From an uncultured Caldisericota bacterium (lineage in GTDB: Bacteria > Caldisericota > Caldisericia > Caldisericales > Caldisericaceae), in the NCBI GenBank assembly GCA_913055585.1, contig CAJXKN010000002.1, positions 1 through 40,669 on the forward strand: a DNA stretch of 40,669 nt. The letters are read 5' to 3'. Shown here piece after piece: positions 36,455-40,669 of this stretch (within the stretch, counting starts at the first letter, position 1; every line of letters starts with the position of its first letter). The position numbers and the translations under genes were made by a program. Below the pieces are notes generated by a model. It had not been told where the DNA came from, ran no database searches, and worked only from the letters and a program-made list of their open reading frames with translations.

Positions 36455-36547
36455 TGGCGGAGAGAGTGGGATTCGAACCCACGGAAGGATTTTACTCCCT
36501 CACTCGCTTAGCAGGCGAGTGCCTTAAGCCTACTCGGCCATCTCTCC
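36455..36547 (-). tRNA. tRNA-Ser (GCU anticodon)
   Basis: Read on the minus strand, the acceptor arms GGAGAGA and TCTCTCC pair, the anticodon arm CTCGC-CTGCTAA-GCGAG carries GCT, and a long class II variable arm follows as expected for serine. GGTTCGAATCCC is the T arm. The discriminator is G and the 3' CCA is encoded (36455-36457). The gene is 93 nt long with CCA. No other gene lies in 36385-36605. Confidence 0.97.
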
Positions 36548-36872: not shown

Positions 36873-37574
36873 TTACTTCCATATGTATTTAAGATAGAAA
36901 ATCCCGACTGCTTTGCTTGCATCACCTTTGCCTACCTTATAAGCTTTGCCTATAAGTGGCTTATACATTACATCATAGTGATAAACATCATATATAGGAT
37001 ATACTTCTATTGCTCCAGATGTATTATTATGAATAGAATTATGAATAGATAAACTGCATTTAAGAGCAGGGTTATAAATTTTGGTTACACTAAATCCCAC
37101 TCTCTTAGAAATGACATTTGCAGTCGCATTTGTGTTGGTATTAAATAAATTTGGGATTGATTCTCTTCCTAACATAAATATTGTACTTGACCCAGGACCA
37201 GATCCTTCATTTGTATCAATATAGTGTGTACCCCACATTTCATATGGACCGCTTAAATTGGTTATGTAATAACGGCTGATCCCTCGATGAGACGTTGAAG
37301 GAGAAGAATTTAGTTTTACAGTATTTCTATCGTTAAAGTACACAATCTTTGTTTCAAAGTGTATAAGTTTCGCATCTTCTGGAAGGCGTTTTAAGATATA
37401 TTCTCTGAGAAATGTTGCATTATCAAGCTGCTTTACAGGTAACATCTTGTAATGATATTTGTATTTATATTCTTCAATATTAACAGCACGGGTATTACTT
37501 ACCATTGACACAACAAGCATAAATACAAGTATTATTGTAACCAAAGCAATAACTACTTTCTGCCAAGCAGACAT
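36873..37574 (-). CDS. Membrane-anchored or exported protein of unknown function
   Basis: The 233-residue protein has an N-terminal hydrophobic segment (about 6-26) and a long extracytoplasmic part rich in Tyr, Asn, Ser and Thr with a single Cys. Many NXS/T-like and aromatic residues suggest a beta-rich surface protein. GGAGG precedes the ATG. I know no homologue. The upstream region 37577-37810 is a copy of an intergenic repeat that also precedes the gene at 39690-40208. Confidence 0.6.
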   Translation of the reverse strand: MSAWQKVVIALVTIILVFMLVVSMVSNTRAVNIEEYKYKYHYKMLPVKQLDNATFLREYILKRLPEDAKLIHFETKIVYFNDRNTVKLNSSPSTSHRGISRYYITNLSGPYEMWGTHYIDTNEGSGPGSSTIFMLGRESIPNLFNTNTNATANVISKRVGFSVTKIYNPALKCSLSIHNSIHNNTSGAIEVYPIYDVYHYDVMYKPLIGKAYKVGKGDASKAVGIFYLKYIWK

Positions 37575-37576
37575 TT

Positions 37577-37810
37577 TAGCCTCCTTGCTTAATAATTTTT
37601 ACTTCTAACTTCATTTTATATTTTACACCTTCAAGCTATTTTGTCAAATTTCAAATTTAGCTCTAACAAATCCCGCACAGAAATTCTCTTACTGTCTTTC
37701 TTACATCCACTTTTCATACTTCCACTATTAAACCTTTTTCTTACCATTCCCGAGGCACTCCGGATTATCCGTTAGCTACCCCCATTCAACATTCCAAACC
37801 CTTTATAGGA
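37577..37810. repeat. Long intergenic repeat, part A, copy 1
   Basis: The stretch resembles 40211-40500. A core of 85 bases (37681-37765) matches 40351-40435 at 78 positions without gaps and ends in CCCGAGGCACTCCGGAT. The flanks match more loosely and reach to the ribosome binding site of the gene at 37574. The repeat is read as the leader of that gene. Confidence 0.8.
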
Positions 37811-37825
37811 GCATCTACTCTTTAC

Positions 37826-38410
37826 CTAAGCGTTTCTCCCTATTACTATATTTGATGCAGTCAATAGTGTTATTATTAATAAGAGTATTCCCATTGCTCC
37901 ATTTACAGCATAAATGGTATAGTGAGAAATAAGGAAAAATTCAATAAGAAAAGCTCCTGCAAGCATAATGAAGAAGTAAGCAATTTTCATCTTAGAATAG
38001 TAATAAATCTGTACAGTGAGGGATAAGAGAAACAGAGAAACAGCAATGTACATATAGATAGTGCTAAACGATGTTGGTAAAATTGCTAATAACGATAATA
38101 GCGATAAAGCTAATAAAATTATTGCGGTTATATTACAAACAATTATAGTAATGGGGATTTTCCGTGAGATACTGTTTAGAATTGAATCATCATACACATA
38201 CTTTTTGCTGAAAATAGGTATGCCAAAGACAAAAGAGGCCATAGTAAGTATGAAGATAATTGCAAGCCAAGTATTGAATTCTCTTGTACTTATATGAACA
38301 TAATCAATTTCAAGAAGTAAAAAGCAAAAATTAATTAAAAAGAGAAATACCATAAAATTATAAGATACAACCTCTTTCGTAAGCTTTAGTATAGGTTTGT
38401 TTTCTTTCAT
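37826..38410 (-). CDS. Polytopic membrane protein of unknown function
   Basis: The 194-residue protein has about six hydrophobic helices and few charged residues, with no motif I recognise. Its start ATG overlaps the TGA of a 41-codon upstream ORF (ATGA), so translation may be coupled; an AGGAG lies 12 nt before the ATG. It lies between the two parts (A and B) of the long intergenic repeat, which are directly adjacent in the other copy at 40211-40669. Confidence 0.65.
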   Translation of the reverse strand: MKENKPILKLTKEVVSYNFMVFLFLINFCFLLLEIDYVHISTREFNTWLAIIFILTMASFVFGIPIFSKKYVYDDSILNSISRKIPITIIVCNITAIILLALSLLSLLAILPTSFSTIYMYIAVSLFLLSLTVQIYYYSKMKIAYFFIMLAGAFLIEFFLISHYTIYAVNGAMGILLLIITLLTASNIVIGRNA

Positions 38411-38532
38411 TTCTGGTTGCTACTCCTATCATTTAGTCTCCATTCAACATCCATATTTACCATCTCCTTGTAGCGAAATTTTATATTTTCTAAAAACACA
38501 TTCTCTATTTTCATACAAACCGATTTTTTCAT
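38407..38532 (-). CDS. 41-residue repeat-encoded small protein, copy 1
   Basis: The frame starts at ATG 38532 (MKKSVCMKIENVFLENIK), nine bases after TATAAT, and ends in a TGA overlapping the next gene's start. The parallel frame in the other repeat copy (40509-40604) starts MKKLICIKIENVFLESIN, with the middle block KIENVFLE unchanged. Neither has a Shine-Dalgarno site. It may be a leader peptide or a chance frame conserved by the DNA repeat. Confidence 0.4.
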   Translation of the reverse strand: MKKSVCMKIENVFLENIKFRYKEMVNMDVEWRLNDRSSNQK

Positions 38533-38583
38533 CTTATTACTATTATAATCGTTTTTTAGTCAAGAGCCCTTCAAACTCACCAC
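38461..38583. repeat. Long intergenic repeat, part B, copy 1
   Basis: This part matches 40531-40665 closely. It holds, on the minus strand, AGTCAA/ATTATA (TTGACT and TATAAT) boxes at 38558-38563 and 38542-38547 separated by only 10 bp, the start of the small ORF, and an AAGGAG site. The other copy has 20 bp between the boxes because its A-tract is longer. Confidence 0.8.
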
Positions 38584-38598
38584 TTACAAAATCCTAAC

Positions 38599-38642
38599 TC
38601 CCAAATCCTATATTCAACATTCATCATTCAACATCCAACATC
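38599..38642. repeat. Short ATTCAACAT-type repeats
   Basis: ATTCAACAT and close variants (ATTCATCATT, CATCCAACAT) occur several times here. They also appear at about 37793 and 38441, and in diverged form near 40495. They look like an expanding simple-sequence motif in the spacers of this region. Confidence 0.5.
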
Positions 38643-38731
38643 TCTATATATAAGACACTTAACTCATAAAAAAGTTCCATCATTTTGGAAGCATTTTTAA
38701 AAATTCTTCTTCTACTATATACAATGCTTAA

Positions 38732-38914
38732 AATAAAAAATTACCACACAGTTTTGAGAGAAAGTTTAGAAAGATTGCATTTAATTCTATACACTGCATC
38801 TATGTTTTTAAGGAAAATTATGAGAAAAGTTTGGAGAATTACCCAGATAGAGATTTAAAGAAATATTACTCATAAAAGTTAGTAGAACATTTAGAGATAT
38901 TAAGGCTGAGATAA
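38732..38914 (+). pseudogene. Degenerate ORF remnant of unknown origin
   Basis: One plus-strand frame reads KLPHSFERKFRKIAFNSIH..., then ENYPDRDLKKYYS, one TAA, and KLVEHLEILRLR before the final stop. The composition (charged, helical, ordered) looks like protein rather than random spacer, but there is no start and no family I can name. It overlaps the end of the minus-strand gene at 38900 by a few bases. Confidence 0.3.
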
Positions 38915-39679
38915 TTTACTTTTTATATAACTCATTACTTCTTCCTTTGTAGGAGTTCTGCCAAGTTGTTTTCTTAAGAATTCAGGAATTGGTCCTTCCT
39001 TTGCAACCTTTCTGAAATCCTCTCCTTTAATCCCATTTTCAAAGAAATATGCCTTCGTTTCTTTTGTTATTGCGATATTCTTTGTCTTTGAATTATTATA
39101 TAAGTCTGGTTGATAAAGTGGAATTATGCAAGCCCATTTTCCATCTAAAATCTGGAAGAAATCATTGAGGGCAAATCCCTTTTTACCTGGAGGATTCATT
39201 AAGAGGTTAGCAAATGAAAAATCTGGCGCAATGAGAAACAGATAATTATCCAGTGCTTTTTTGCTTTTGATATCGTAGCACGCCCCATCATAGCAACTTA
39301 TTGTACCATTTTCAAAGGGAAGTAAAGAGTTATTACTCTCTGGTTTATAATAAACATTATTTGTTCCTTTGAAGTGAAAAGACATTTTTTTACCCTTGCT
39401 ATTTACATACACATCACAGTTAAGAGAATAAAACGTTCCATAAGTTCTTTTATTATTCTTAATTTCTTTTTTCGGAAGCCTTATGACTTTGATATTTTTT
39501 ATAGTAAGTGAACATGGCTCTATTATGTTAAAATCTTTTCCATATTGGAAGCCATTTAGTGTGATAGGCCCCGGCGATTTTAACACTATATTGGCATGAG
39601 CACCTTTGTAGATAAAAACACTCCCAATAAAAGCAATTACTATTATTGCAATTATCAAGAATTCATAATTTTTTTTCAT
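38900..39679 (-). CDS. Membrane-anchored extracytoplasmic protein of unknown function
   Basis: The 259-residue protein has an N-terminal hydrophobic anchor (about 7-25). Its outer part is beta-rich, with four to five cysteines including CYDGACYD around 130. A helical, charged tail (EFLRKQLGRTPTKEEVMSYI) follows. ATG 39679 has AGGAGG upstream. It lies 10 nt behind the next gene upstream and is probably co-transcribed with it. I recognise no family. Confidence 0.65.
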   Translation of the reverse strand: MKKNYEFLIIAIIVIAFIGSVFIYKGAHANIVLKSPGPITLNGFQYGKDFNIIEPCSLTIKNIKVIRLPKKEIKNNKRTYGTFYSLNCDVYVNSKGKKMSFHFKGTNNVYYKPESNNSLLPFENGTISCYDGACYDIKSKKALDNYLFLIAPDFSFANLLMNPPGKKGFALNDFFQILDGKWACIIPLYQPDLYNNSKTKNIAITKETKAYFFENGIKGEDFRKVAKEGPIPEFLRKQLGRTPTKEEVMSYIKSKLSQP

Positions 39680-39689
39680 AGCTTCCTCC

Positions 39690-40208
39690 TTACCACGTAG
39701 GATAATTTACGTCACTTATAATCTGAACTGAACCATTGCTGGTGAATGTTTCCCAGACTACATGATAAGCATCACCGTTTCCAAACCCCCAGACCCCATT
39801 AACTGGTGAGTCAATGCTTATATGCTCGCCAGGAGTCACATTGCATGGTATTCTATCCAGCCGAAATTCCAACCAACCAACTGAAATTACTGCATTATAG
39901 TTTGTAATAGTATAAGGAGAATAATTGTTATACGAATATCCGGAAAATGTTTTAACAACGAATGCGGAGGGATCTGAAGTAGAAATACTCCAGTGTGTCT
40001 CGCTGCGATTTATTAATGAGCCGTAACACATATAAAATTCATTCCAAGAATAAGGATATTGGGTGTAATCCGGATAAAGAGTGTAATCAACTTGTTGATC
40101 ATAATCGGTACAGGCAAATACTGTACTATAGTTTGCAATAAAACCAATCATTGCAAGTAACAAAATCATTGTTATCATTATAACTATTAATTTTTTATGA
40201 GTAAACAT
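39690..40208 (-). CDS. Secreted beta-rich protein of unknown function
   Basis: The 172-residue protein has a signal sequence (1 to about 32, VFA|CT). The mature part of about 140 residues is rich in Tyr, Ser and Trp and has three cysteines, typical of a small secreted beta protein. AAGGAGG precedes the ATG. Its leader (40211-40500) is copy 2 of the long intergenic repeat that also precedes the gene at 37574. No family is recognised. Confidence 0.65.
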   Translation of the reverse strand: MFTHKKLIVIMITMILLLAMIGFIANYSTVFACTDYDQQVDYTLYPDYTQYPYSWNEFYMCYGSLINRSETHWSISTSDPSAFVVKTFSGYSYNNYSPYTITNYNAVISVGWLEFRLDRIPCNVTPGEHISIDSPVNGVWGFGNGDAYHVVWETFTSNGSVQIISDVNYPTW

Positions 40209-40210
40209 TT

Positions 40211-40500
40211 TTACCTCCTTATTTAATAATTTTTATTTTTGCCTTTTTAGGCAATTAAATAAATATTTCCTTTTTGCATCTAACTTCATTATTCTACACC
40301 TTCAAACCATTTTACCCAATCTTAAATTCTCCTGCACTAAATCCTGCTTAAAATTTTCTCACTATCTTTCTTACATCCACTTTTTATACTTCCACCATTA
40401 AACTTTTTTCTTACCTTTCCCGAGGCACTCCGGATATAGAATTTTCGCTTTCAGGTTCCGCTTTTACAAAACAAGTTTATCTGTTAGCCTCTATTCAGCA
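40211..40500. repeat. Long intergenic repeat, part A, copy 2
   Basis: The 85-base core (40351-40435) matches 37681-37765 at 78 positions. Near the gene a short TTGCC/GGCAA hairpin is inserted that copy 1 lacks. No gene separates this part from part B. Confidence 0.8.
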
Positions 40501-40508
40501 TTTAACAT

Positions 40509-40604
40509 TTAGTATCTAACATTCATATTCATCACCTCCTTGTAGCACAAATTTATACTTTCTAAAAACACATTTTCTATTTTTATACAAATCAATTTTT
40601 TCAT
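40509..40604 (-). CDS. 31-residue repeat-encoded small protein, copy 2
   Basis: The frame from ATG 40604 starts MKKLICIKIENVFLE and ends MNVRY with TAA at 40509. It is the shorter counterpart of the ORF at 38407-38532. TATAAT lies nine bases upstream and there is no ribosome binding site before the ATG. It does not lead into another gene. Confidence 0.35.
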   Translation of the reverse strand: MKKLICIKIENVFLESINLCYKEVMNMNVRY

Positions 40605-40669
40605 CTTATTGTTATTATAATCGTTTTTTTTTTTTTTTAAGTCAAGAGTTCTTCAAATTCACCACTCAC
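40531..40669. repeat. Long intergenic repeat, part B, copy 2 (runs to window end)
   Basis: It matches 38461-38583 and carries, on the minus strand, TTGACT (40640-40645) and TATAAT (40614-40619). A spacer of 20 bp contains a run of 15 A (T on the plus strand, 40624-40638). The repeat may continue beyond the window. Confidence 0.8.

Follow-up and report, generated by a model that had tools for sequence, protein, structure and literature searches.

A two-part intergenic repeat, made of parts A and B, is found twice at one end of the window, by which we mean the whole of contig CAJXKN010000002.1 (C2, 40,669 nt) from an uncultured Caldisericota bacterium whose assembly (GCA_913055585.1, 75%-complete) comprises 1.29 Mb in 140 contigs. 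We propose, with a probability of roughly three in four, that this repeat acts as a shared 5' control region for the exported-protein genes of a regulon of the extracytoplasmic function (ECF) sigma factor type, with homogenised leaders, in the Caldisericia family of this genome. The anatomy and recurrence of the unit, its association with exported proteins, the homogenisation of leaders and the exchange of leader plus signal peptide can be read from the sequences themselves. Depending on the test, comparisons covered 18 genomes of the family, 49 of the class, 25 relatives (homolog search) or nine genomes (promoter clusters); related genomes bearing names are Caldiserica metagenome-assembled genomes. 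No paper on intergenic repeats or ECF factors in the Caldisericota phylum was found in the literature searched.

The repeat in the window and its copies in the genome

As the sequence-only reading had described, part A occurs twice in the same orientation (37681-37765 and 40351-40435; 85 nt, 92%, that is 78 identities), and so does part B (38446-38557 and 40518-40629; 112 nt, 88%). An additional piece of B (38552-38587 and 40634-40669; 36 nt, 86%) is separated from the first by a register shift which corresponds to a poly-A tract, A6 in copy 1 and A15 in copy 2. Both parts of both copies read on the minus strand. An open reading frame (ORF) of 194 residues (37826-38410) separates A from B in copy 1, whereas the two parts lie 82 bp apart in copy 2. 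In each case A leads to AAGGAGG and the ATG of an ORF with a hydrophobic N-terminus, of 233 residues in copy 1 and 172 residues in copy 2. Copy 1 is preceded by a promoter-like block (38642-38678); the window's 3' limit (40669) falls within the second B copy, and the equivalent block of copy 2 would lie past it. The hairpin of a structured motif is missing from copy 1 (junction GCTAACGGAT/AATCCGGAGTGCC). The features are as follows.

36873-37574, minus: 233-residue ORF with hydrophobic N-terminus, behind A copy 1
37576-37765, minus: A part, copy 1, ending in the ribosome site AAGGAGG (37580-37586)
37750-37776, minus: remnant of the structured motif, GCTAACGGATAATCCGGAGTGCCTCGG, without hairpin (compared with alignment A2)
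37826-38410, minus: 194-residue membrane-protein ORF between A and B of copy 1; homologs in G013, G001 and G004
38407-38454, minus: micro-ORF MDVEWRLNDRSSNQK then stop, in ATGA overlap with the start of the 194-residue ORF; Shine-Dalgarno AAGGAGATGG just 5'
38446-38587, minus: B part, copy 1, with TTGACT 38558-38563, A6 38552-38557 and TATAAT 38542-38547; spacer 10
38588-38641, minus: stretch of 7-bp repeats (GATGTTG GATGTTG AATGATG ...)
38642-38678, minus: P1, an ECF/sigma-E-like promoter, GGAACTTTTTT-N-GTGTCTTATATATAGAG
39690-40208, minus: 172-residue exported ORF behind copy 2; leader-bearing homolog in G006
40209-40435, minus: A part, copy 2, with GCCTAAAAAGGC hairpin (40241-40252) and ribosome site
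40420-40491, minus: structured motif GAGGCTAACAGATA ... TATCCGGAGTGCCTCGG
40509-40526, minus: micro-ORF MNVRY then stop (5 codons); Shine-Dalgarno AAGGAGGTG at 40533-40541
40518-40669, minus: B part, copy 2, with TTGACT 40640-40645, A15 40624-40638 and TATAAT 40614-40619; spacer 20; contig ends

When the window's second unit was used as query, copies were detected at 38 places of the same genome (E 1e-233 to 2e-3). Many of these stand at contig ends, as expected since assemblers break where repeats are met. It had been considered that the similarity might be limited to the two sites of the window and result from a local duplication of gene and leader followed by deletion. The two copies are indeed 2.7 kb apart, and one tandem pair of related genes carries units on contig C80. 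However, the 38 places and the unrelated genes behind the two window A copies refute this explanation, to which we give practically no credence.

Mapping of the modules on the contigs of the genome revealed a fixed order. From the 5' side, P1 is followed by 7-bp repeats (GAATGTT and GGATATA among them), by B (TTGACT, A tract, TATAAT, AAGGAGGTGGTAAATATG), by more 7-bp repeats, by the GAGGCTAACGGATA...TATCCGGAGTGCCTCGG motif, and then by the remainder of A, the GCCTAAAAAGGC hairpin, the ribosome site and the gene. In terms of signals, the unit thus reads GGAAC-N17-GTCT, 7-bp repeats, TTGACT-(poly-A)-TATAAT, a strong Shine-Dalgarno with a 5-codon micro-ORF, a leader of about 250 nt and the ribosome site. 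Modules are omitted in some copies: P1 passes directly to the motif in C90 and C110, and B alone starts a gene in C73 (334 residues), C96 and C85 (680 residues). C53 2627-2815, C66 6687-6879 and C30 10400-10589 carry another type of 3' leader half, in which a GCAGTTTGC...GCAGACTGC hairpin stands ahead of the ribosome site. An Rfam search of the sequence matched no described RNA family or riboswitch leader, the sole match reaching its threshold being a tRNA.

These modules bear on the possibility that the repeat is a non-autonomous mobile element, comparable to a miniature inverted-repeat transposable element, which carries a promoter by chance and is kept only upstream of genes. Its dispersed high copy number, the 80-90% identity of most copies, the contig breaks at copies and the presence of 7-bp repeat arrays alone elsewhere in the genome would agree with such an element. 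However, no terminal inverted repeats were present among the arms listed for the window region, the copies are mosaics of separable modules whose order and orientation to the gene are fixed, the unit ends 3' at a ribosome site, and orthologous genes in several genera carry leaders. We consider this explanation improbable. At loci L084-L093, for example on C50, C15 and C4, the solitary 7-bp arrays are flanked by copies of a different intergenic repeat (ACCCTGAAACAAGTTCAGGGTGACA and its complement).

The 194-residue gene inside copy 1 had been taken as a gene gained or lost within the repeat, a view which the module structure leads us to reinterpret. B closes with a promoter box, a Shine-Dalgarno and a start codon of its own. 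The 194-residue gene starts by ATGA overlap from the micro-ORF of B. B would therefore serve the 194-residue gene, and A the following 233-residue gene. In G013, a homolog of the 194-residue gene stands behind an exported gene that has a leader, and neither A nor B lies directly around this homolog. Insertion of the gene into a once intact A/B unit is a possible alternative. The 233-residue ORF itself had no homolog among the 25 related genomes and no Pfam match; a tRNA gene (36458-36547, minus strand) lies directly 3' of its operon.

Genes behind the units and homogenisation of their leaders

A strongly hydrophobic N-terminus was found in 22 of the 24 genes of this genome lying behind units, versus 10 of 34 background genes (Fisher p 2e-6), "exported" being defined by a hydrophobicity cut-off and the background being one 36-kb stretch elsewhere in the window. 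In nine genomes, the downstream gene was exported in 41 of the 46 promoter clusters to which a gene could be assigned. The count for relatives (31/31) was not used, as that list had been drawn up from genes whose export was recognised beforehand. The Pfam domains encoded behind the units are unrelated (prenyltransferase toroid, BNR/Sortilin, PQQ propeller, PEGA, C39 peptidase, Amidase_6, SurA_N), and BLASTP among the downstream proteins of this genome detected no homology outside the tandem pair of C80. The leader was therefore not duplicated with its genes, and gene-plus-leader duplication is ruled out. Of the initial proposal of a shared promoter-leader unit, either mobile or duplicated with its genes, the shared unit stands, as one spreading or homogenised between sites, while duplication with the genes does not.

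We compared eight ortholog pairs for which both genomes have a leader. The leaders of the present genome scored 18-62 against the leader of the ortholog, versus medians of 38-174 against the other leaders of the present genome, which is higher, mostly by a wide margin (shuffled sequences, 32). Leaders cluster by genome rather than by ortholog over about 250-450 nt, non-motif sequence included. This result contradicts the view of a plain conserved leader inherited with each gene without any spread, in which likeness would be due to selection on binding sites and structure. The existence of eight cross-genus pairs with leaders on both sides and the conservation of P1 and the micro-ORF between genera are what one would expect from simple inheritance. 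Yet leaders are unlike even in a pair with 91% identity over 57 residues, and we regard inheritance alone as a poor explanation.

In two cases, identity at the end of the leader extends through about 20-28 signal-peptide codons and then stops: one between the window's 172-residue gene and an otherwise unrelated gene of G013 (C51), the other between G014 (C2) and G006 (C7). Recombination, either gene conversion or replacement, probably lies behind the likeness of leaders. Near-identical promoter sequence also precedes non-homologous genes in this genome. In this respect the units resemble putative mobile promoters (Matus-Garcia et al. 2012, as cited in PMC8049555), which, in the account given there, are short promoter-bearing sequences before unrelated genes of one genome. 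Relative to that account, the present unit differs in being much longer, in containing a leader and a micro-ORF, in preceding exported-protein genes only and in being conserved at the family level.

The distal promoter and the micro-ORF

ECF promoters of the sigma-E type have the form GGAACTT-N16-TCTNA. The P1 boxes, GGAAC at -35 and GTCT at -10 separated by 17 bp, match this type. A whole-genome search with the P1 pattern gave 14 matches in the own genome and 8 in G006, and the pattern was present in 6 of the 18 family genomes; reversed-pattern controls gave 0 matches in all genomes searched. A weight matrix, with the best score on reversed sequence as threshold, collected 83 sites from loci fetched in nine genomes, with GGAAC-GTCT spacings of 17 (51 sites), 18 (21) and 16 (10). 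In G006, an ECF sigma gene (C79) is itself behind a P1-like promoter and a micro-ORF, which is the arrangement expected of an autoregulated sigma factor. P1 would be recognised by an ECF sigma factor. The likeness to ECF regulons includes the sequence and spacing of the boxes, this gene of G006 and the exported targets; unlike in those regulons, the targets here have hundreds of leader bases in common, beyond the promoter boxes.

The micro-ORF is the part of the unit with the widest conservation. Of 35 sites in relatives, 33 show a stop within 26 codons behind AAGGAGRTGGTGYAATATG, in most cases following precisely five codons (reversed control, 0), with the consensus M[RN][VA]xx then stop, in which codon 2 is R or N and codon 3 is V or A. 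The whole-genome pattern was found in 16 of the 49 class genomes, 15 of them in the own family and one of another family; the reversed control was again 0. The sites inspected from this search again mostly precede exported genes, and micro-ORFs are longer in some genera (often 10 codons). On the minus strand of contig C56 of G009 (locus L245), an (AG)8 promoter and the micro-ORF MNVGGVKRM precede several short cysteine-rich ORFs and a 446-residue ORF; these occupy the place of the signal-peptide gene and are possibly a modified-peptide cluster.

By analogy with the STAB-SD 5' stabilisers, as in cry3A (PMC4113751), the micro-ORF may act in mRNA stability or in translational gating. Both have a strong Shine-Dalgarno far upstream of the ribosome site of the gene, but here, unlike in STAB-SD (PMC4113751), the Shine-Dalgarno is followed by an ATG that opens a 5-codon ORF whose codons 2-3 are conserved.

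The spacer tract and expression of the exported proteins

The spacer between the proximal -35 and -10 boxes holds a poly-A tract of 6 to 15 in this genome. In other genera the spacer is (AG)n: all 8 of the 8 (AG)>=7 tracts detected in the 18 family genomes are directly behind TTGACA, in the spacer slot. Six of them stand 16 to 28 nt before TATAAT, TATAAA or TATATA, and two, both in G007, about 30 and 40 nt before TAAAAT. G007 is a single contig of 1,558,103 bp, in which two duplicate loci (L293 and L294; C1:131500-135500 and 1008500-1012500) align over 3,865 bases with 0 mismatches and one gap. This sole difference is 10 nt of the AG tract (5 AG units), for which an error of tract length in the reference is possible. 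A difference in the AG tract alone is what slipped-strand hypermutability predicts. The perfect duplication itself has a length of at least 3,865 bp.

A slippage-prone repeat between -35 and -10, and length variation between otherwise identical copies, are thus both present. In Mycoplasma hyorhinis vlp and M. mycoides vmm, a change in length of a poly-A tract or of a dinucleotide repeat, respectively, in the promoter region switches surface-protein transcription (PMC10502178). The present units are alike in having poly-A (own genome) or (AG)n (relatives) between TTGACW and TATAAT. Unlike in vlp and vmm, the tract is flanked here by an ECF-type promoter on its 5' side and by a micro-ORF leader on its 3' side, before many unrelated exported genes, and switching is predicted. 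Phase variation of the units is plausible on these grounds; that the spacer tract slips and makes the proximal promoter phase-variable is a suggestion we make tentatively.

The following sequence of events could be envisioned. The distal ECF-type promoter (GGAAC-N17-GTCT) and the gene-proximal, sigma-70-like TTGACT/TATAAT box would start a transcript bearing, in order, the strong Shine-Dalgarno, a micro-ORF of typically five codons, the leader of about 250 nt and the ribosome site of a gene for a secreted or membrane protein. The micro-ORF would recruit ribosomes, stabilising or gating the mRNA, and slippage in the spacer tract might switch the exported proteins on and off at random. Within genomes, recombination would keep the units alike or newly spread them, independently of the genes served, and would sometimes take the signal-peptide codons along.

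Several points weigh against the proposed control region or its switching. None of the ECF genes of the own genome has a clear P1 upstream, and the export comparison depends on the cut-off and background given above. TTGACT-TATAAT spacings in this genome range from 9 to 20, with a mode of 13 and none at 16-18, so that the proximal box is perhaps no ordinary sigma-70 promoter in this case; spacers clustering at 13 rather than 17 argue against a simple transfer of the mycoplasma vlp/vmm model. As for the RNA, the structured motif gave a fold with z -2.9 in one copy but one covarying pair, which supports the structure weakly, and shuffled sequences fold at least as well as the full leader. With a stable fold in one copy and little covariation, a conserved RNA structure of the GAGGC...GCCTC motif is not claimed.

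Taken at its widest, the common control region could belong to a family-wide, phase-variable export system which combines an ECF-type promoter, a spacer microsatellite, a 5-codon minigene and a recombination process recruiting new exported proteins via leader and signal peptide, although we would rather bet against this full version. Surface-protein genes whose promoters are switched by repeats are known chiefly from host-associated bacteria such as mycoplasmas. Caldisericia are a thermophilic lineage for which, to our knowledge, no host association is known. If true, switching in these organisms would suggest that phage or community pressure drives it. Through the shared leader, the exported-protein regulon of a little-studied phylum can be defined in practice, and with the conserved 5-codon micro-ORF a new leader element is available for testing.
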